The translations under genes and the position numbers were made by a program. The notes beneath the pieces were generated by a model. The model saw only the letters and a program-made list of their open reading frames with translations. It was not told the origin of the DNA and ran no database searches. From Gammaproteobacteria bacterium (GTDB taxonomy: Bacteria > Pseudomonadota > Gammaproteobacteria > Acidiferrobacterales > Acidiferrobacteraceae), in the NCBI GenBank assembly GCA_028064935.1, contig JAPTWT010000326.1:1-11092 (forward strand): a stretch of 11,092 nucleotides of DNA. The letters are read 5' to 3'. Below, in pieces: positions 362 through 10,145 of this stretch (the stretch's first letter is position 1; each line of letters begins with the position of its first letter).

Positions 362-895
362 CTAGGGTTCAACTATTAATCCAAGATTTTGGAGTCGTAG
401 CTCCATCGCTTGTTGGCTCACACCAAACCTATTTGCAAGTCGATATATATCCATGTCGGTAAGTTCTTCACCGAACTTTTCTAGTTCTTTTTCCAACATA
501 CCCTTGGGCATCAACAAGTCAGCCGCGAACGCATTTGCTTCTATTTCTTGTTGATACTTTCCAGAGCTTGAATCGACGTTGCGGTAGTAGACCGTTTTAT
601 CGATAAAGACTGCTGAACTGCTGTTCAAGTGTAGGTAGTAGTGGCCAAGCTCATGAGCAATCGAAAACCGTTGCCGATTAGGGTGGTGATTACTATTCAC
701 AGCGAGAAAGACTTTACCTTTCTTTTTAACCAAGAACCCAGACACGTCATTGTCCAGTTCATCGTAGACTAGATTGACATCTGCTTTTTCAGCAAGAAAA
801 GCGACGTCAACTGGCGGTTTTGATTGCTTCCATTCGGCCAATATCTCGGCAGGTTTGGGTTTTGCAGTTTGCTTCCCTTTGGCGAAAGTGGTCAT
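362..895 (-). CDS. ImmA/IrrE-family metallo-endopeptidase
   Basis: A 177-residue predicted cytoplasmic zinc peptidase of the ImmA/IrrE (COG2856) family. The gluzincin motif HELGH is at residues 81-85, and a downstream EIEANAFAADLLMP segment (117-130) supplies the third zinc ligand (Glu117 or Glu119). The length is usual for the family. The ATG at 895 is preceded by a strong ribosome-binding site, AGAGGA, about 7 bases upstream. It lies 52 bp downstream of the HTH gene on the same strand, so the two are probably one transcript. Known members (ImmA of ICEBs1, IrrE/PprI of Deinococcus) cleave a cognate Cro/CI-type repressor, and the neighbour is exactly such a protein. The inference is that it inactivates that repressor under stress or phage attack. 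The C-terminal 50 residues are helical and may sense the trigger. Confidence 0.93.
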   Translation of the reverse strand: MTTFAKGKQTAKPKPAEILAEWKQSKPPVDVAFLAEKADVNLVYDELDNDVSGFLVKKKGKVFLAVNSNHHPNRQRFSIAHELGHYYLHLNSSSAVFIDKTVYYRNVDSSSGKYQQEIEANAFAADLLMPKGMLEKELEKFGEELTDMDIYRLANRFGVSQQAMELRLQNLGLIVEP

Positions 896-947: not shown

Positions 948-1301
948 TCACTCCTTATCGCCCATCGATAGGTTTTTTATAAGCGCAGCCGTCTTGGGTG
1001 GTATCTCGCTAGGCGGATCCGGCCGTCTTGAAGTGGTATCGGGCAATTGGGCCACGAGATCCTCGACCACCGGAATTACGTCCGAAATTTGCACAGATAG
1101 TTTCGCGCACAGCACGTACAACAAGTGCAAAGGGATTCGCTGCTCTCCCTTTTCAATATTCGTGATCGATGTTCTGGTGACGCCTAGAAGTTCAGCAAGG
1201 GCCGCCTGTGTCAGCCTAGGTTTCTTGGCTTGCCGCAGATCGTGGATGGCTTTTCCGATCCGCCGATACAGGCGATCGACGTCAATCGTTGAATGCGTCA
1301 T
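948..1301 (-). CDS. Cro/CI-type (XRE) HTH repressor
   Basis: A 117-residue DNA-binding protein. The helix-turn-helix is at residues 31-52 (TQAALAELLGVTRTSITNIE), followed by the usual KGEQRIP...LL..LC..L continuation of the XRE fold. The C-terminal tail (88-117) is proline-rich and could be the linker cut by the adjacent ImmA-type peptidase. The open frame extends upstream to 1397. I choose the ATG at 1301 because a consensus promoter (TTGACA, 17 bp, TATACT) ends six bases before it, so an upstream start would lie outside the transcript. The mRNA is then predicted to be leaderless, which fits the absence of a Shine-Dalgarno sequence. The TGTCA-N7-TGACA operator at 1331-1347 covers the -35 box, which suggests autorepression. 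It probably also controls the divergent ubiquitin-like operon. Confidence 0.92.
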   Translation of the reverse strand: MTHSTIDVDRLYRRIGKAIHDLRQAKKPRLTQAALAELLGVTRTSITNIEKGEQRIPLHLLYVLCAKLSVQISDVIPVVEDLVAQLPDTTSRRPDPPSEIPPKTAALIKNLSMGDKE

Positions 1302-1307
1302 TTCGAA

Positions 1308-1336
1308 AGTATAACCAGTCGACCCAGAAATGTCAA
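1308..1336 (-). promoter_or_regulatory. sigma70 promoter of the repressor-peptidase operon
   Basis: Read on the minus strand, TTGACA (1336-1331) is followed by exactly 17 bp and TATACT (1313-1308). This is a perfect -35 with a near-perfect -10. The predicted +1, seven bases beyond the -10 box, is position 1301, the A of the repressor's ATG, which implies leaderless mRNA. The -35 box lies inside operator O1. Confidence 0.8.
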
Positions 1337-1347
1337 TATAGCTGACA
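1331..1347. promoter_or_regulatory. operator O1, TGTCA-N7-TGACA
   Basis: The 17-bp dyad TGTCAATATAGCTGACA overlaps the -35 box of the repressor promoter. Binding there would block repressor synthesis, giving negative autoregulation. Its half-site and spacing match O2 exactly. The site is read directly; that the adjacent HTH protein is the ligand is inference. Confidence 0.7.
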
Positions 1348-1365
1348 ATATCGCGGGTGCGCCTG

Positions 1366-1386
1366 TATGTCAGCTGCGCTGACATA
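1366..1386. promoter_or_regulatory. operator O2, 21-bp near-perfect palindrome
   Basis: The left arm TATGTCAGC (1366-1374) and right arm GCTGACATA (1378-1386) are perfect inverted repeats around a 3-base centre, TGC. It contains the same TGTCA-N7-TGACA core (1368-1384) as O1. Its centre at 1376 is 37 bp from the centre of O1 and 21 bp (about two helical turns) from the centre of O3. It is probably the highest-affinity site for the HTH repressor. Confidence 0.78.
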
Positions 1387-1388
1387 TA

Positions 1389-1405
1389 TGTGTGCAACGT
1401 TGACA
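1389..1405. promoter_or_regulatory. operator O3, degenerate third site
   Basis: TGTGT-N7-TGACA keeps one perfect half-site and three of five bases in the other, with the same spacing as O1 and O2. Its good half is part of the -35 box TTGACA (1400-1405) of the forward promoter. A repressor bound here, helped by O2 two helical turns away, would shut off the ubiquitin-like operon. Confidence 0.5.
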
Positions 1406-1507: not shown

Positions 1508-1756
1508 ATGACTACGTCGCCGAACCATGAAGTGAAGATCGAAGTCAATGATATCGAGCGCACTGTCCCCAAGGGGAAATTGTCGTTTGACGATCTGGTA
1601 AAGATAGCATTTGGGTCAAATGCGAATCCGGCGGATGGATATCGGATTTCGTACGATCGTGGCCACGGAAATGCTTCTGGGAAGCTTAAGCCGGGTGAAT
1701 GGATCGAAGTCGTTGAGGGCATGGACTTCACTGTGACAGGGACCGGTCAATCCTAG
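1508..1756 (+). CDS. ubiquitin-like beta-grasp protein (multiubiquitin-domain type)
   Basis: An 82-residue protein that I read as a single beta-grasp domain of the prokaryotic multiubiquitin type (Pfam Multi-ubiquitin family, by pattern memory). It has an initial strand pair (VKIEVNDIERTVPKGKLSF), a helix (DDLVKIAFG), and a closing section with LKPGEWIEVVEGMDFTV. A TTG lies in frame at 1502, but the ATG at 1508 has AAGGAG seven bases upstream and is preferred. Its partner is the E1-like enzyme that starts 20 bp downstream, which should adenylate the C-terminus. The C-terminus reads TVTGTGQS, so the glycine is not terminal. Either two residues are trimmed, or the chain end is used as it is. 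Family role: a modifier attached to other proteins, or a sulfur carrier. The operon context favours the modifier role. Confidence 0.78.
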   Translation: MTTSPNHEVKIEVNDIERTVPKGKLSFDDLVKIAFGSNANPADGYRISYDRGHGNASGKLKPGEWIEVVEGMDFTVTGTGQS

Positions 1757-1776
1757 TATTAGAGGCGAGGCACACA

Positions 1777-2967
1777 ATGGAAAAACTTCCTGAAGCTATC
1801 GATGGGAGTATTCAGCGTCTTTTGGCGGATGGATACGCCATTTACAGACGCGGTACATACATCGTCGCTGCCGTGCCGTACCTGGATGCTGCAGGAAATC
1901 CTCATACTGGCCTAATGGTCGATACACTTAACCTCGACCAGGACGGCAAAGTTCGTGTTGCACCGACTAACCATCAGATGTACTTCGTCGGGCAGCAGCC
2001 GTACGACCACATGGGACGGATTCTGTTTGGCGGCGCTAACGCACACGTTGCCCCGTTGTTCGATGGAAAATCGTCATCATTCTACTGGTCTTGGAAGCAA
2101 CTGGACGCTGCTGGCGTTAAGCGTGACTACCTCAGTCTTTACGAGAAGTTCACCGAATATGTTGTGTATGTCTCGGGGCCTGCTCAGGCAAAGTTTCCGA
2201 CGTATAAGATCACTCCATTCGATGGCGCAGGGCGAGTTGAGGCAACTTGCCCCTTTCCCTTTGAGGACATGAACTCGGCGCGGGCGAACCTTAGGGAACT
2301 TGATAGATTGGTTGAGGGCGACTCAATCGCAATTATTGGCGCGGGCGGGACCGGCTCCTATATTTTTGATCTTGTTTCAAAAACGAGGGTTCAGAAGATC
2401 AAACTATTTGATTACGACGTTCTTGATCTCCACAACGCATTCCGCATACCGGGAGCGACCTACCGAGAAGAACTGGGGCAGCCGAAAGTCAAAGTCATTG
2501 AAGAGCGCTATAGAGGTTGGCATAGGGGAACCGAGGTTTTGGAGGCGAAACTTAACGGCCAGTCAGAGGCATCTCTCGGTGGCGTTACTTTTGCTTTTTT
2601 AGCGGTGGACAAAATTGGCCCTCGCCGCGAACTTGCCAAGTTGTTGCGTGCGATGGGTATTCCTTTCATCGTGGTCGGGATAGGTATTCATCATGGTAAT
2701 CCAGGATTGACCGGTATGGTCGAAACCACTTTGATTGACGAAAAGACTGTACCACACGTATTCGAAGAGGTCGCAGGAGAACAACTCATCGATCTACCCG
2801 ATGAGTACCAGAAGAACATCCAAACGGTGGAATTAAACGCGCTTAACGCGGCAATGGCCGTCTTTATGTACAAGAAATATCGTGGATATTACGCATCGGG
2901 TCGCTCGGTTTATCAGGCATCGTTTACCACGTCTTCCATGCAGCTTGATCGTGCAAGCACCGACTAA
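1777..2967 (+). CDS. ThiF/E1-like adenylating enzyme with N-terminal DUF6791/E2-like domain
   Basis: A 396-residue enzyme predicted to activate the C-terminus of the upstream ubiquitin-like protein with ATP. Residues 1-165 form an extra N-terminal domain of the type found fused to such E1s (DUF6791, proposed to be E2-related). The ThiF/E1 domain spans about 180-380. It has the nucleotide loop GAGGTGS (188-194), acidic Asp212 and Asp214, Asn220 and Arg223 of HNAFR, the family Lys237 in GQPKV, and Asp278 before the R of DKIGPR. The only cysteine in the chain is Cys158, just before the E1 domain. There is therefore no cysteine in the usual E1 catalytic region, nor in the N-terminal PxD...G stretch (QPYDHMG, 74-80), where I recall relatives having Pro-Cys. 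The ATG at 1777 follows a GAGGCGAGG ribosome-binding site. It overlaps the next gene, which implies coupled translation. Confidence 0.88.
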   Translation: MEKLPEAIDGSIQRLLADGYAIYRRGTYIVAAVPYLDAAGNPHTGLMVDTLNLDQDGKVRVAPTNHQMYFVGQQPYDHMGRILFGGANAHVAPLFDGKSSSFYWSWKQLDAAGVKRDYLSLYEKFTEYVVYVSGPAQAKFPTYKITPFDGAGRVEATCPFPFEDMNSARANLRELDRLVEGDSIAIIGAGGTGSYIFDLVSKTRVQKIKLFDYDVLDLHNAFRIPGATYREELGQPKVKVIEERYRGWHRGTEVLEAKLNGQSEASLGGVTFAFLAVDKIGPRRELAKLLRAMGIPFIVVGIGIHHGNPGLTGMVETTLIDEKTVPHVFEEVAGEQLIDLPDEYQKNIQTVELNALNAAMAVFMYKKYRGYYASGRSVYQASFTTSSMQLDRASTD

Positions 2968-3364
2968 CGCGACGAGAACCTTTGGTGTAGTTCGCGGCAC
3001 CATACCCGCGGAACTCTCTAACGGGAAGATCTATGTCAATTTGAGCTGCAACAGAGCTCATCATCTGTGCGCATGCGGGTGTGGGAGTCGCGTGGTGACG
3101 CCTCTCAATAGACATGAATGGCGCCTGACCGGCTCCGATTTGAATCCATCGTTGACTCCATCAGTTGGAAACTGGAGCTTGGAGTGTCAGTCACATTATT
3201 GGATTAGAAAAGGTAAGGTCGTTTGGGCACCGCGTTGGAGCGCTGCCGAAATCGCGGCTGGCAGGGCAAAAGAACAGGAGCCTTACCTCGGGAACACCTG
3301 GCTGGACAAGGCCAAGTCATGGCGCTCACGTATTGCTAAAGTGATATTTCGCACCCGAAAGTGA
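2951..3364 (+). CDS. DUF6527-type Cys/His-rich protein
   Basis: A protein of about 137 residues from the GTG at 2951. The open frame reaches back to another GTG at 2882, but that would overlap the E1 gene by 86 bases, against 17 for the chosen start. Neither has a clear ribosome-binding site, so translational coupling to the E1 stop (2965-2967) is likely. Key features, numbered from 2951, are HHLCACGCG (37-45), then VGNWSLECQSHYWIRKGKVVW (from 72). His38, Cys40, Cys42, Cys44, Cys79 and His82 form a probable zinc site. This matches the DUF6527 family, which I recall recurring beside multiubiquitin and ThiF/DUF6791 genes. Its activity is unknown to me; a structural zinc adaptor, a ligase-like factor or a Ubl-processing factor are all possible. 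The tail is basic. Confidence 0.8.
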   Translation: MQAPTNATRTFGVVRGTIPAELSNGKIYVNLSCNRAHHLCACGCGSRVVTPLNRHEWRLTGSDLNPSLTPSVGNWSLECQSHYWIRKGKVVWAPRWSAAEIAAGRAKEQEPYLGNTWLDKAKSWRSRIAKVIFRTRK

Positions 3365-3859: not shown

Positions 3860-4654
3860 TCACCGCCCAAACGGGTCCAGCCTCTCATAATTGGGTAGGT
3901 TAATCCCCAAACGTGTCGCTTTTGTCGCGGGCTCTGGTGCGGCGCCTGAAGGTAGCTGATAGAAACCCGTGCACCCTCGCGGTTCGTGATTATGCAGTGC
4001 AGCCCGGTATCGCCATTGGTGGAAATCCAGCGCAAAGACGCAGATCCACGGTCCCTTCATTGTGGTATGCCAGACACATTCGTACCTTAACTTTCCATTG
4101 TTGCAGGCGATCCGGTCAACGTTGCGTGCCGCTCGGTTATCCTTGATTATTTGTACAAAAAGGATGTGCTGCGGTCTGAATTTATCTGGCACGGGGCCGT
4201 CCTTGCTTGGCACGGCCACGAGAAACGGTGTCTGAATCCCGAAACGCGTCTCCGGCGGCGCGGGCTCACCATATAGCGCGGCATGAAAAGCGCGAACCCA
4301 GCGCTCGACAGTGCCGTAGATATTTACGTTGGTCATGGTGACCTGCGCCTTGCCTGTATGTCCGATGGGCTGCACCAGGCTCTTGATTCGCAGCTTGCCG
4401 GGAGGAGGCGGGCGCTTGTCGATGGTCGACATGAATTGCCCGACGCGTTCATCGGTGATTGCGTAGGCGGCATTGCATGCGGAATGTGTCGGAAGTTTTA
4501 AAGGGGAACCGCGGTCGCCGACGGCAAAGCAAGCTCTGGGCGGCACGTGGTCCATATTCCTGGCTACCCCGGCGACAAAGAGTTCGCCGCACACGTAACA
4601 GAAAGGCAACGTTTGTGCCGACTGCAATTGCTTCGCGGTAATCAGCGACGGCAT
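3860..4654 (-). CDS. HNH-type endonuclease-like protein
   Basis: A 264-residue protein whose first 70 residues carry an HNH/treble-clef nuclease pattern. The pattern is CYVCG (Cys19, Cys22), NMDHVPP (Asp35-His36), and LPTHSACN (His57, Cys60, Asn61), followed by a DE pair (68-69). This spacing resembles small HNH proteins with two zinc cysteine pairs and an H-N metal-binding core. The remaining about 190 residues are unrecognised and aromatic- and basic-rich, and could bind DNA or a partner. The ATG at 4654 is supported by GAGAGGTGG about 4 bases upstream. It is convergent with the ubiquitin-like operon and separated from it by about 440 bp of relic DNA, so it is probably an independent cargo gene. 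DNA cleavage is inferred from the motif; the target is unknown. Confidence 0.7.
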   Translation of the reverse strand: MPSLITAKQLQSAQTLPFCYVCGELFVAGVARNMDHVPPRACFAVGDRGSPLKLPTHSACNAAYAITDERVGQFMSTIDKRPPPPGKLRIKSLVQPIGHTGKAQVTMTNVNIYGTVERWVRAFHAALYGEPAPPETRFGIQTPFLVAVPSKDGPVPDKFRPQHILFVQIIKDNRAARNVDRIACNNGKLRYECVWHTTMKGPWICVFALDFHQWRYRAALHNHEPRGCTGFYQLPSGAAPEPATKATRLGINLPNYERLDPFGR

Positions 4655-4896: not shown

Positions 4897-5220
4897 ATGA
4901 ACAAGTCAAACAAGTTTTCACCTGAGGTCCGTGAGCGTGCGGTGCGGCTGGTGCAGGAGCACCGCGGGGAGTACCCGTCATTGTGGGCAGCGGTGGAGTC
5001 AATAGCCCCGAAGATCGGCTGTGTACCGCAGACGTTGCTGGAGTGGGTCAAGCGTGCGGAGATCGATGCCGGGACGCGACCGGGCACGACCACCACCGAG
5101 TTGCAGCGCATCAAGGAGCTGGAGCGCGAGAACAAGGAGCTACGGCGCGCCAATGAGATCCTCAAGACCGCCAGCGCTTTTTTCGCGCAGGCGGAGCTCG
5201 ACCGCAAACTGAAGTCATAA
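4897..5220 (+). CDS. IS3-family OrfA (HTH and leucine zipper)
   Basis: A 107-residue transposase N-terminal protein. Residues 6-54 ([12 protein letters not shown] through [11 protein letters not shown]) form the HTH_Tnp_1 domain that binds the terminal repeats. Residues 70-103 are a coiled coil ([23 protein letters not shown]...) used for multimerisation. The ATG at 4897 is preceded by GGAG at short spacing. Near its 3' end it contains the slippery heptamer T TTT TTC, where some ribosomes shift to -1 to make OrfAB. OrfA alone normally ends at the TAA at 5218-5220 and acts as a regulator of transposition. Confidence 0.93.
5178..5184 (+). promoter_or_regulatory. programmed -1 frameshift site T TTT TTC
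   Basis: In the orfA frame the sequence reads gcT TTT TTC, a canonical X XXY YYZ heptamer. Slipping back one base gives TTT TTT CGC and enters the orfB frame, which is open from here to 6125. It is a poly-U type site rather than the more usual A AAA AAG of this family. Confidence 0.75.
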
Positions 5221-6125
5221 ATACCTACATCGACCAGCACCGGGACACGTACGGGGTCGAGCCGATCTGCAAGGTCTTGCAGGTTGCCCCGTCGGCCTAC
5301 CGGCGTCATGCCGCCCGGCAGCGCAACCCTGAGCTGCGCAGTGCCCGGGCCAAGCGTGACGAGAGGCTGATGCCGCACATCGAGCGGGTCTGGCAAGCCA
5401 ACATGGAAGTCTACGGCGCGAGGAAGGTCTGGAAGCAGATGAACCGCGAGGATATCGTGGTGGCGCGCTGCACGGTGGAACGGCTGATGCGTCGTCTGGG
5501 TTTGCAGGGTGCGCGCCGTGGCAAGACCGTTCGCACCACGGCGCCTGATGTTTCAGCGCCTTGCCCGCTGGACCGGGTCAATCGCCAGTTCACGGCCGAT
5601 CGTCCCAACCGGCTCTGGGTCTCGGACTTCACGTATGTCTCGACCTGGCAGGGCTGGCTGTACGTGGCTTTCGTCATCGACGTGTTCGCCCGGCGTATCG
5701 TCGGCTGGCGCGTCAGCACCAGCATGACCACGGACTTCGTGCTCGATGCGCTGGAGCAGGCCCTGTACGCCCGGCAGCCCGATCCGGAGGATGACCTGAT
5801 CCATCACAGTGACCGAGGCGCGCAATACGTCTCGATCCGCTACAGCGAGCGGCTGGCCGAGGCCGGCATCGCGCCGTCTGTGGGCAGCAAAGGCGACAGC
5901 TACGACAACGCCCTGGCCGAGACGATCAATGGGCTGTACAAGGCTGAGCTGATTCATCGTCGTGGACCCTGGAAGACGCGGGAATCCGTGGAGCTGGCAA
6001 CCCTGGAATGGGTCTCCTGGTTTAACCACCAGCGGCTCATGGAACTGCTGGGCTATATCCCTCCGGCAGAAGCTGAGGCAAACTACTACAGGCAACTCAA
6101 CGGTCATACTGCTGTGGCAGCATGA
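5178..6125 (+). CDS. IS3-family OrfB integrase (made as OrfAB by frameshift)
   Basis: The catalytic half of the transposase. The frame is open from the slippery site. The characteristic OrfB beginning, [20 protein letters not shown], lies before the first in-frame TTG at 5277, which shows that the protein is normally made by frameshift and not from that codon. Numbering from 5277, an HTH_21-like segment covers 25-85. The retroviral integrase core has Asp117 (WVSDFTY), Asp179 (HHSDRGAQY) and Glu215 ([14 protein letters not shown]). The D-E gap of 35 residues is typical of IS3, and the C-terminal [20 protein letters not shown] is also diagnostic. It ends at TGA 6123-6125, 12 bp before the right inverted repeat. 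It appears intact. Confidence 0.93.
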
Positions 6126-6137
6126 CTTAAACCCAAC

Positions 6138-6164
6138 AGCCTCCGCGATACCCGGGGCGGTTCA
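6138..6164 (-). repeat. IS3 right terminal inverted repeat
   Basis: The reverse complement begins TGAACCGCCCCGGGT and matches the left end at 24 of 27 positions, the differences falling in the middle. The next bases outside (from 6165) are already IS21 istA coding sequence. Confidence 0.88.
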
Positions 6165-6166
6165 CA

Positions 6167-7600
6167 GCGGTAGCCGAATGCTTGGCTCGGGCTACCGCAG
6201 CAGGCTTTATAGGACCTCTACCCCATACCTTAAGCGATCAGGCACTTGAGGAACGCCTGTATCCGGCGGTGCCGACGATTACGCGTTATATCTCGCCTGA
6301 CTGCGCCGCCATGCATCAAGAGCTTAAACGCAAGGGTATGACCTTGCAGCTCTTGTGGAAGGAATACTGTGAGGTCCAGGGATCCAAGAGTTACGGCTAT
6401 ACGCAGTTCTGTGCCCTCTACCGGCGCTTCAAGGAGGGTCTTAAGCGCAGCCTCCGCCAAACCCATGTGGCCGGCGAGAAGTGTTTCACCGACTACGCGG
6501 GTCCCACGGTCCCGGTCGTGAACGGCACCACTGGCGAGATCCGCCACGCCCAGATCTTTGTCGCGGTATTGGGGTGTTCGAATTACACCTATGTCGAGGC
6601 CACCTGGACCCAGACCCTGCCCGATTGGGTGGGGAGTCACGCGCGGGCCTTCACCGCATTCGGTGGCGTCACACGTATCTTGGTTCCGGATAATTTGAAG
6701 GCCGCGGTGACAAAGGCGTGTCGTTACGAGCCGGAACTGAATAGAGTGGCGCAGGACTTTGCCAGTCATTACGGAACAGTAATAATACCGGCGCGTCCCT
6801 ATAAACCAAAAGATAAAGCGAAAGCAGAAAATGGGGTGCTCATCGTCCAGAGATGGGTGGTGGCTCGTCTGCGCCATCAGACATTCTTTACGTTAGCCGA
6901 GTTAAACCAAGCGATTCATCGCTTGGTGGCAGACATGAATATCCGTCCCTTCCAGAAGTTGCCAGGCTGTCGGCAAGAGGTCTTCGAGCGCTTAGACAAG
7001 CCAGCCTTAAAGCCGCTCCCCGTTGCCCCCTATGAGCTGGCCACCTAGAAGATTTGCAGAGTCCACATCGATAGCCATATCGAGGTGGCGGGGCATTACT
7101 ACTCCGTGCCTCAGGCCTTGTGTCGTCAACAGGTGGAGGTGCGGATCACGCATCACACGATCGAGGTCTTTTTTAAGCATCAACGGGTGGCGAGTCACGC
7201 GGTAAGCACCCTACAGGGCGCCCATACCACCGTTATCGACCATTTGCCCAAGGCCCATCAGAAACATCTCACCTGGACACCAAAGCGACTGTTGGATTGG
7301 GGGGCCTCAATGGGTCCGGCGACTCGCGCGGTAGTTGACTGGCAGTTGACCCATAAGCCCCACCCCGAACAAGGCTATCGCGCGTGTCTAGGTCTCTTGA
7401 GCCTCGCCCGTCGCTATACCCCGGAACGCCTAGAAGCGGCCTGTGTGCGGGCGATAGCCATTCCCAGTTTTACCCGTCAGACCGTGCTCTCGATCTTAAA
7501 AAAAGGTCTGGATCGCGCACCCTTGATCACCGCAGAGGACGATACACCAGACACCCTTCCGACCCACGCTAATGTGCGCGGACCGGGTTACTACCATTAA
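6167..7600 (+). pseudogene. istA: IS21 transposase IstA, 5'-truncated with an internal amber stop
   Basis: One continuous frame that meets IstA homology directly at the IS3 edge (AVAECLARATAAG resembles the end of the IstA HTH region). Numbering from the TTG at 6182, the DDE core has Asp104 (FTDYAG), Asp170 (VPDNLKAAV) and Glu216 (DKAKAENGV), with the 45-residue D-E gap expected for IS21. A TAG at 7046-7048 interrupts the frame in the sequence ELAT-stop-KICRVHID. Relatives have a tryptophan at this point (ELA-W-K), so it is probably a single G-to-A change of TGG. The frame resumes unchanged (HYYSVP, then the C-terminal domain) to TAA at 7598-7600. The missing N-terminal DNA-binding domain and the stop make it non-functional unless it is suppressed. 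Confidence 0.88.
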
Positions 7601-7647
7601 TCGATGATAACCCGTTTTACGTAAACACCACCAACACAGGAGACACC

Positions 7648-8388
7648 ATGTTATTACAACAGACCGTAAGCACCCTTAAAGCCTTAAAGCTCACCGGCAT
7701 GGCCCAGGCCCTCGAAGAACAAGAGAGCCAAGCCATTACCCAAGAACTGCCCTTTACCGATCGCTTGACGCTCCTTATGGATCGGGAGATAGCGCATCGC
7801 GATACCAAGCGCTTAACCCGCCTCCTCCAGTTGGCGCACCTAAAGCATGATGCTTGCCTAGAAGATATTGACTATCGGGCCCGGCGCAATCTGGACCGCT
7901 CCCGGATCGTGGCCTTGGGCAGTTGTGACTGGATCCGCCGCGGGCACCCGTTGCTGATTACCGGGCCCACTGGGGTCGGTAAGACCTGGCTTGCTTGCGC
8001 CTTAGCCCATCAGGCCTGTCGTCAGGGTCTCACCGTGCGGTATCTGCGCGTGCCGCGCTTCTTCGAAGAACTACGGGTGGCCCACAGCGATGGGAGCTTC
8101 AGTAAACGGATGGCTGCGCTGGCCAAGATCGATCTCATCCTTCTAGATGATTTCGGACTGGCGCCCCTGACTACCGGTCACCGTCATGATCTCCTTGAGC
8201 TTTTGGATGATCGCGCCGGCACGCGGAGCAGCATTATCACGAGCCAACTTCCGATAGTGAACTGGCATGAACATCTGGGCGACCCCACCGTGGCCGATGC
8301 CATCTTGGACCGTATCGTCCACAGTGCTCATCAAATTGCCTTACAGGGAGAATCTCTGCGGAAGACAAAACGCCCAACCCTTGACTGA
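7648..8388 (+). CDS. istB: IS21 transposition helper ATPase IstB
   Basis: A 246-residue AAA+ ATPase that normally assembles on target DNA and stimulates the IstA transposase. The N-terminal helical segment (1-70) begins LLQQTVSTLKALKLTGMAQAL, typical of IstB. Walker A GPTGVGKT is at 106-113, Walker B ILLDDFG at 164-170, and a sensor-1-like SIITSQ at 195-200. The end, DRIVHSAHQIALQGESLRK, is the family C-terminal signature. The length is normal and the frame intact. The ATG at 7648 has an AGGAG ribosome-binding site 6-7 bases upstream. With istA broken it has no partner in cis, but it could serve a related element elsewhere in the genome. Confidence 0.95.
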   Translation: MLLQQTVSTLKALKLTGMAQALEEQESQAITQELPFTDRLTLLMDREIAHRDTKRLTRLLQLAHLKHDACLEDIDYRARRNLDRSRIVALGSCDWIRRGHPLLITGPTGVGKTWLACALAHQACRQGLTVRYLRVPRFFEELRVAHSDGSFSKRMAALAKIDLILLDDFGLAPLTTGHRHDLLELLDDRAGTRSSIITSQLPIVNWHEHLGDPTVADAILDRIVHSAHQIALQGESLRKTKRPTLD

Positions 8389-8627: not shown

Positions 8628-10145
8628 TTGAACGACTTTACCTACATTGACGAACAGGAGGGGGCCATTCTCGACGAGATGGCGGACCTGCTCGGCAAGC
8701 ACAAGCTTGTACCGTTTTTTGGCGCCGGCATCTCCCGTCCGCAATTGGGCTTCTCAGCCGCCGGGCTTGCGCAGCAAATGGCGGACCAGATCGAGCAGAG
8801 GTCCGGCACCCTATTGTCGGAGCTGTCGGACTCTTTCGCTGACAAGTTTGGCGAAGAGGCGTTCATCGGCTTTCTTAAGGAAAAGCTGGTGCTGTCCGAC
8901 TTCGACGACACAAAGGTTGCGGCCCACCGGCTCCTGCTCAGTCTGTCACTCAATCTTCTCTATACAACCAACCAAGACAATCTCTTCGAGCAGGTTGCCG
9001 AGCGCTATGGCCGATCATACCGACGCGTGGTAACGCTTTCGGATCTGAGCGACGCCATCCCCGGAGAGCCGATCCTCATCAAATTCCACGGCGACCCCGA
9101 CGTTCCCTCGTCGCTCGTATTTGGCAAGCGCTCCTACGAAGCACGCATCGAGTCGAAGGACCATCCTCTCGACATCAAGCTCCGCGCGGACTTACTCGGA
9201 AAGCGGCTTTTTTTCGTCGGCTACAGCCTGCAAGATGAGAATGTTGGCAAACTTCTGCGTAGTGTTCAGAATGCCTTTTCCGGGAAAATCCCACCATCCT
9301 ACCTCCTCGCCTACGAGTACGACCCCTCGATGGAGGAACTGAGCCGGACCTACGGCATCCAGGTCGTCAATCCGCGCCAGCTCTGCCCGAGCGCCCAGAC
9401 GAACGGCGAAGCCTTCGAGCGCTGCCTGAAAGCATTGTGTGACCGCACGATCAAGATTCAAGCCGGGCGCGGCCTCGACCTGCTGTTTCGAGACGAGAGG
9501 ATCAATCCAAGGGTGGCTATGGAGTTCGAAGTCGAAGTCGTCGCCGGGACCGTTGAAACCAAGTCTTTTCTCGACGCCGTTGCTGGCTTCCGTGCCGTTT
9601 TTGATCAAACAAGGGTACCCATCAGCCTGCAACAGAGGGTGACGGACGTCTTTTTGCGCCTGTGTCAGCGGGTTGACGCTACGAGTGACGCCGAAATGGC
9701 GGCTCTCAGGGCCGTCCTTTTCAATTTCCGCCTGCCGCCCCAATTTTCCTGTCAGGCCATGGCAGCGGTGATGGCGGCGTGCAACCAGCGGCCACCACCA
9801 CGCGCAGCCTTTGACGATTTCGGCGCGCTGCTCTGCCCGGCGCTTCCCGACGGCACTCGTCCGGTTGCCGCCGCATTGGCAATAACGATGATGCATAGCC
9901 GGGGAGAGGTGATTACCGACAATTTCCGAAATCTCGCGACTTCTTGGTTCCAGGGCTTTCAGGAACTCGACCCGAAGATTCTGGAATCGGTCAAGGCCAC
10001 TATTCCTCTCGCATGGTCTGGCACCAAGGCATCCGAATCTCCCTTGAATCGACCGCGTCTTCCGTTCCGTACGAAGGGGTTTCATGAGCTCGTGGCGCAG
10101 CTGACCGGACAGCTTCCGCAGAAATTTAAATCTCCGCGAGAATAA
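8628..10145 (+). CDS. SIR2-domain protein, probable defence NADase
   Basis: A 505-residue protein with an N-terminal SIR2-like (SIR2_2 type) domain. The motifs are FFGAGIS (30-36, NAD binding), TTNQDNLFE (113-121), IKFHGDPD (151-158, catalytic His154) and VGYSLQDEN (197-205). The Asn115 and His154 pair corresponds to the residues needed for NAD hydrolysis in bacterial SIR2 defence proteins such as ThsA and DSR. Residues from about 290 onward are helical and unrecognised, and are probably the sensing or oligomerisation part. The frame begins at a TTG at 8628, after an in-frame TAA at 8607, with a weak AGAGG upstream. An ATG at 8679 would remove 17 residues but keep the fold. The likely role is abortive infection by NAD depletion. 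Its upstream neighbour is only a fragment, so it may be an orphan effector. Codon use is more GC-rich than in the ubiquitin-like operon. Confidence 0.85.
   Translation: MNDFTYIDEQEGAILDEMADLLGKHKLVPFFGAGISRPQLGFSAAGLAQQMADQIEQRSGTLLSELSDSFADKFGEEAFIGFLKEKLVLSDFDDTKVAAHRLLLSLSLNLLYTTNQDNLFEQVAERYGRSYRRVVTLSDLSDAIPGEPILIKFHGDPDVPSSLVFGKRSYEARIESKDHPLDIKLRADLLGKRLFFVGYSLQDENVGKLLRSVQNAFSGKIPPSYLLAYEYDPSMEELSRTYGIQVVNPRQLCPSAQTNGEAFERCLKALCDRTIKIQAGRGLDLLFRDERINPRVAMEFEVEVVAGTVETKSFLDAVAGFRAVFDQTRVPISLQQRVTDVFLRLCQRVDATSDAEMAALRAVLFNFRLPPQFSCQAMAAVMAACNQRPPPRAAFDDFGALLCPALPDGTRPVAAALAITMMHSRGEVITDNFRNLATSWFQGFQELDPKILESVKATIPLAWSGTKASESPLNRPRLPFRTKGFHELVAQLTGQLPQKFKSPRE

Follow-up and report, generated by a model that had tools for sequence, protein, structure and literature searches.

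Ubiquitin-like protein (Ubl) conjugation in bacteria is exemplified by Bil (BilABCD). We analysed a compact operon for a predicted Ubl, an E1-like enzyme and a small DUF6527 protein in an 11,092-nucleotide stretch of Gammaproteobacteria bacterium DNA (assembly GCA_028064935.1, contig JAPTWT010000326.1), hereafter the window. A matching arrangement is type 6e of Iyer et al. 2006 (PMC1779556), which, in the sections of that paper drawn on here, combines a Ubl built from one to three beta-grasp repeats (~70-75 amino acids, aa) with an E1 fused to a JAB domain, a subset having an uncharacterised domain at the N terminus instead; across rows 6a-6e, JAB is fused to E1 or encoded in an adjacent gene, that subset excepted. 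The same sections describe a small Cys/His protein with the signature C-x(3)-C-x(35-38)-H-x(2)-C, propose this zinc-finger protein as a target recogniser or E3-like adaptor, and guess at a JAB-like role for the uncharacterised E1-fused domain. The window operon is alike in its predicted beta-grasp Ubl, its E1 with a fused N-terminal domain and its small Cys/His protein, whereas most type 6e members there have a JAB and some an E2/RWD-like domain (PMC1779556), neither of which is in the window operon. We assume that the type 6e N-terminal domain is DUF6791 and the Cys/His protein DUF6527. An earlier note on this DNA had taken the arrangement to be unknown, but this does not quite hold, since type 6e covers it and Bub operons are under experimental study according to the excerpted text of PMC13373217.

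The window E1 is homologous to the E1 of BubCD from the Citrobacter BubA/BubB/BubCD system, judging by the titles and alignments of Protein Data Bank entries 9ea4, 9ea5, 9ea8, 9eae and 9eav. Bub has an E2 (BubB, Prok-E2_E) and an E1-fused JAB, whereas the window operon has neither and carries DUF6791 in the place of JAB; likewise, the window Ubl ends in Ser, whereas most of the JAB-type Ubls fetched have FG or TEG plus a tail. Similarity to Bil is confined to a weak PADLOC BilD match of the window E1 (E 0.055). The Synechocystis pSYSX cassette shares a multiubiquitin, an E1 and a metal-binding protein adjoining an XRE/DUF955 pair, but carries an E2 gene, unlike the window; in the part of that paper used here, its authors read the pair as toxin-antitoxin and state that 70% of PF14452 proteins adjoin XRE/DUF955-type loci with a DUF955 component (PMC4963859). 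That Bub operons protect against phage has yet to be demonstrated, according to the excerpted text of PMC13373217. On balance, we favour reading the window operon as a minimal, intact Bub-like (type 6e) Ubl module that lies beside a CapH/CapP-type repressor pair and would adenylate its Ubl without an E1 thioester. It is a real and apparently intact representative of a type that was predicted in 2006 and has since been studied in part under the name Bub.

The three genes are co-directional on the forward strand, with the Ubl at 1508-1756, the E1 at 1777-2967 and the DUF6527 gene ending at 3364. Their positions, the 20-bp gap between Ubl and E1, and the overlap of the E1 and DUF6527 genes stand as the earlier note had them, with one correction to the DUF6527 gene: its longest open reading frame (ORF) spans 2882-3364, and alignment with homologues such as P0121 suggests that translation begins at the GTG at 2951, giving a 17-bp overlap with E1 and a protein of 137 aa (2951-3364, forward strand). 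In P0067, E1 and DUF6527 share one ORF with a diverging end, and therefore a frameshift is possible there. All Pfam matches of the trio lie above curated cut-offs. The Ubl (82 aa) contains a single Multi_ubiq domain (PF14452, E 2.3e-7; score 31.3 bits, cut-off 24.5), the E1 (396 aa) contains DUF6791 at residues 12-164 (PF20590, E 1.3e-19) and a ThiF adenylation domain at about 169-396 (PF00899, E 2.6e-12), and the third protein matches PF20137 (E 6.5e-24). No NCBIfam model exceeded its cut-off for any of the three, the E1 belonging to the PRK06153 group yet falling below every cut-off there; with PADLOC, neither the Ubl nor DUF6527 had a model at E <= 1, and the E1-E2 matches of the E1 were all weak (best E 1.5e-6). 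The Pfam scan, which took in nine of the 54 listed window ORFs, matched no E2 or JAB model.

That this is a ubiquitin-like activation operon, as first proposed in the earlier note, is supported, and the three genes recur as a set. A scan of species genomes with an alignment of 40 E1s found that at least 582 of 594 scored stretches encode E1 relatives, which, with the conserved gene order, places the operon far beyond chance. The best 80 of the at least 582 relatives (loci L001-L080) and three viral contigs (fragments only in two of the three) made up a set of 83 loci, in which the trio members were located with local profiles, E1 being present by construction in the genome loci. The Ubl was found in 81, E1 in 82 and DUF6527 in 80 of the 83; among the genome loci the counts were 80/80, 80/80 and 78/80. 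The trio order is constant and on one strand. The survey of neighbourhoods thus identifies Ubl, ThiF/DUF6791 E1 and DUF6527 as a recurrent set, complete in 78 of 80 genome loci. DUF6527 was not found in L043, which ends inside E1, or in L014, which has flank to spare; E1 is split into two ORFs in L079. About 2 kb separates E1 from DUF6527 in L042, L055 and L060. In the Bacteroidota loci L042 (2443-4407) and L060 (7153-9111) this interval holds an additional, P-loop-like gene (about 650 aa), and the gap of the same size in L055 had no ORF picked.

The nearest named genome, Tsuneonella rigui (L001), has the same trio with an E1 70% identical to that of the window. Clustering of the 80 full E1s from the loci, that of L081 among them, gives 41 groups at 60% identity and 10 at 50%, and plasmid records contain E1 relatives (114 records) and DUF6527 relatives (117, at a looser E-value). 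Operons with equal gene lengths occur in metagenome-assembled genomes named for different groups (L032, L034, L035 and L043), which means that the taxonomic spread is inflated by errors in binning or by transfer. The window itself differs at no column conserved in at least 90% of 120 E1 or 104 DUF6527 sequences. The earlier note had left a choice between a minimal and a truncated system; with the trio in 78/80 genome loci and no deviation at conserved columns, the minimal set gains support and truncation loses it, and the operon looks intact. An E2 or JAB gene always following DUF6527, the pattern that the note had named as contrary to its proposal, did not occur: single-sequence searches at E 1e-4 with two E2 comparators and one JAB comparator matched none of the 83 loci, and Prok-E2_E (PF14462) was listed for none of the eight DUF6791-type genomes described below.

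These eight genomes come from a comparison of operon types within 398 genomes of one phylum, the Multi_ubiq/DUF6791 and Prok-E2_E scans covering the same 398, as their handles indicate. Multi_ubiq exceeded its cut-off in 13, of which eight encode a DUF6791-type E1 (G004, G136, G196, G206, G252, G259, G261 and G309). G117, G325 and G346 are of the JAB type, each with a Prok-E2_E match; G344 is JAB-like, its E2 being found only with our own profile, and G242 lies near a contig end, where its type is not assignable. Among eight longer loci of other types (L119-L126), five encode a DUF6527 relative (L120, L121, L122, L123 and L125), and the Ubls mostly carry FG or TEG plus a few residues or are continuous with a fused E2, L119 having another tail that is neither FG/TEG nor Ser. 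In three E2-bearing operons the DUF6527 relative has a neighbouring gene that encodes about 500-560 aa (L120 5925-7616, L122 1443-2951 and L125 4240-5733); the one in L120 looks kinase-like by eye. JAB-type Ubl operons in L121, L123 and L124 adjoin genes (L121 5691-9164, L123 753-4166 and L124 5419-8784) for proteins of 1121-1157 aa with, by eye, an N-terminal ImmA-like peptidase region.

An intact adenylation site of the ThiF/MoeB type, accompanied by its own Ubl, is a well-supported prediction for the E1. Its nearest solved relative is Citrobacter BubCD, and the top structural relatives include BubCD entries complexed with BubB and BubA; MccB and ThiF are also among the fold matches. No catalytic Cys is conserved among the 120 E1s, the best Cys column reaching 57/120. 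Tyr344 (codon 2806-2808, forward strand) is invariant (120/120) and pairs with BubCD Y370 in a profile alignment. The predicted secondary structure of DUF6791, a helix, five strands and a long helix, prompts a comparison with E2/RWD folds. When a full path through E2s is forced, PP(D/N)HxMYF falls opposite PPDMFY and, colinearly, SxK opposite SRH; the fold search for an E2 match barely covered residues 1-153. An E2-like DUF6791 is a candidate assignment.

The window Ubl is related to the solved multi-ubiquitin protein 9cd2 (E 0.002, aligned as far as residue 221 of 222), which makes it a predicted beta-grasp modifier by homology; the genome of the relative at L037 has three PF14452 domains, against one in the window Ubl. 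Its tail reads TGTGQS (codons 1736-1753, forward strand), and the last residue is Ser in all 81 Ubl ORFs of the loci and in all 31 sequences of an alignment of the window Ubl with 30 of 85 Ubl matches. Position -4 is Thr in 75/81 and position -3 Gly in 46/81, otherwise D, N, S, T, H, C or V. Gly-Gly occurs within the last eight residues in none of the 81, unlike the canonical ubiquitin end. A serine-ended Ubl was not found described in the literature searched, which excluded two key Bub papers.

DUF6527, which was not found named in that literature, has a probable zinc signature, C40-x3-C44-x34-C79-x2-H82 (3068-3196, forward strand). C40, C42 and C44 are present in 104/104 sequences, and C79 and H82 in 103/104 with one gap. 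C40, C44, C79 and H82 recur in all five relatives that come from other types of operon, but C42 in only 2/5; the four shared residues therefore look like the zinc site, and C42 like an extra Cys fixed in the DUF6791 type. Compared with the type 6e signature in the sections of Iyer et al. (PMC1779556) used here, the residues are the same, with the last two swapped and the spacing one shorter.

Divergent from the operon lies a pair of predicted regulators that corresponds to CapH+CapP: a CapP-like ImmA/IrrE metallopeptidase, probably regulatory (362-895, reverse strand; PF06114 E 6.7e-25, PADLOC capP E 6.3e-35), and a CapH-like XRE repressor (948-1397, reverse strand; PF01381 E 4.3e-9, PADLOC capH E 1.3e-7). 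The CapH-like gene probably starts at the Met codon at 1301, the helix-turn-helix of the ORF beginning near residue 46-59. In single-sequence searches, CapP-like relatives occur in at least 35 and CapH-like relatives in at least six of the 83 loci, and every CapP-like match listed (at most two per locus) lies upstream on the strand opposite to the operon. For comparison, 219 of 544 Bub operons have CapW or CapH+CapP, according to the excerpted text of PMC13373217. Possible operator repeats (1330-1386) lie in the interval that separates the Ubl from the XRE gene. The first is a palindrome of 21 bp at 1366-1386, with perfect arms of 9 nt around a 3-nt spacer, equalled in one of 200 shuffles; the second is an imperfect 18-nt copy at 1330-1347. 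A promoter-like site for the XRE gene (1336-1308, 11/12 matches) overlaps this second copy; such sites are no commoner than in shuffles (three found, mean 2.5).

These features suggest how the module may work. The XRE/ImmA pair would induce the operon in response to stress, for instance DNA damage or infection by phage, and the E1 would use ATP to adenylate the carboxylate of the Ubl C-terminal serine; we propose that no JAB processing is needed, because the Ubl already ends at the required residue. Since the E1 has no conserved Cys for a thioester, the acyl group could pass to the target directly from AMP or via an oxygen nucleophile such as Tyr344. The DUF6791 domain (H66, S105, K107) would replace a separate E2, and DUF6527 would be a zinc-binding partner, serving as target adaptor or deconjugase. 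A more specific version is doubtful, though possible: a cysteine-thioester-free E1 pathway in which the Ubl is activated and attached via its C-terminal Ser by way of an oxygen ester on Tyr344 or Ser105, the E1 acts as its own E2 by means of DUF6791, and C42 of DUF6527 is the transferase or deconjugase residue.

Several observations weigh against the adenylating minimal module that we favour. Part of the Ser conservation may come from an overlapping frame: in 77/80 loci a fixed-distance E1 frame places the usual first residue inside the Ubl end and so constrains the codon at that point, the distance from the Ubl stop being identical in 76/80 and one codon longer in one more, an unusually constant overlap, and the E1 start codon itself was located inside the Ubl end in 70/80. 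The Ser codon is TCN in 81/81 and never AGY, a bias that this kind of overlap would likewise promote. The overlap of Ubl and E1 genes is absent from L001, L007, L031 and the window, where TGQS is retained in each case, so Ser is kept independently of the overlap; these four are the only such cases seen as DNA. Nor is the tail exclusive, as the Ubls of the JAB-type operons L124 and L126 also end in Ser. D278 of the E1 is Ala in 8/120 sequences. In hhalign comparisons of DUF6791 with 35 E2s, the best local match (22 columns, score 15.1) was exceeded in 4/59 column shuffles and by unrelated controls (19.2 and 19.9). A further partner could also be encoded 3' of DUF6527, and the literature searched, which left the two key Bub papers outside, yielded no experiment with an operon of the DUF6791 type.

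The serine tail admits another explanation, in which the Ubl is a precursor and a DUF6791 or DUF6527 protease cuts off QS, exposing Gly80 for canonical Gly-ended behaviour. UFM1, trimmed from GSC to G, offers an analogy; the TGTGQS tail is almost invariant in the window clade, most JAB-type Ubls continue past FG or TEG for a few residues or into a fused E2, and the JAB-like role guessed by Iyer et al. for the uncharacterised domain (PMC1779556, sections used here) would fit. However, Gly at -3 is kept in only 46/81 Ubls against 81/81 for the last Ser, and residues that are to be cut off seldom form the best-conserved part of a protein; we consider this explanation unlikely. It is similarly improbable that no protein conjugation takes place, the E1 instead modifying the Ubl C-terminus by MccB-like nucleotide attachment or making a ThiS/MoaD-like carrier. 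The MccB and ThiF fold matches, the fixed non-Gly end of the modifier and the lack of a conserved E1 Cys would all suit such chemistry, but BubCD heads the list of solved relatives, in some entries as a complex with BubB and BubA, and no gene beyond the trio was seen fixed in the operon, its flanking genes being unannotated.

That the operon is what truncation or decay has left of a longer Bub operon, to which the insertion sequence (IS) genes from about 1.5 kb downstream and the larger gene number of JAB-type relatives might point, is already largely refuted and very improbable: the window follows its relatives at every column conserved in at least 90% of the E1 and DUF6527 alignments, T. rigui has the same trio, and so do 78 of the 80 genome loci, three loci having the 2-kb interval noted above.

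Beyond the operon, a crude procedure picked the next sizeable ORF 3' of DUF6527 in 74 loci, and in 44 of these it is on the opposite strand. In the window, a 264-aa ORF on the reverse strand (3860-4654) has an HNH-like Cys motif by eye and no Pfam match. IS elements fill 4897-8388, between the operon and a SIR2 gene: an IS3-like ORF pair recognised by eye (4897-5220 and 5277-6125), and an IS21 element whose istA is divided between two frames (6182-7048 and 7085-7600) and whose istB lies at 7648-8388. The SIR2_2 protein (8628-10145) resembles ThsA of Thoeris (PADLOC E 1.4e-19), and the region is therefore possibly a defence island; no relative of this protein was found in the 83 loci.

The points of interest in this operon are its serine end, its E1 without a conserved Cys and its small gene set. 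The serine end hints at an unusual attachment chemistry, and together the invariant terminal Ser and the absence of a conserved E1 Cys pose a testable challenge to the rule that Ubl modifiers are Gly-ended and thioester-borne. Since the Ubl and E1 genes of the window do not overlap, its Ubl tail can be altered without changing the E1. The DUF6791 type is widespread, with at least 582 relatives, and its three proteins are few enough for reconstitution in the test tube.
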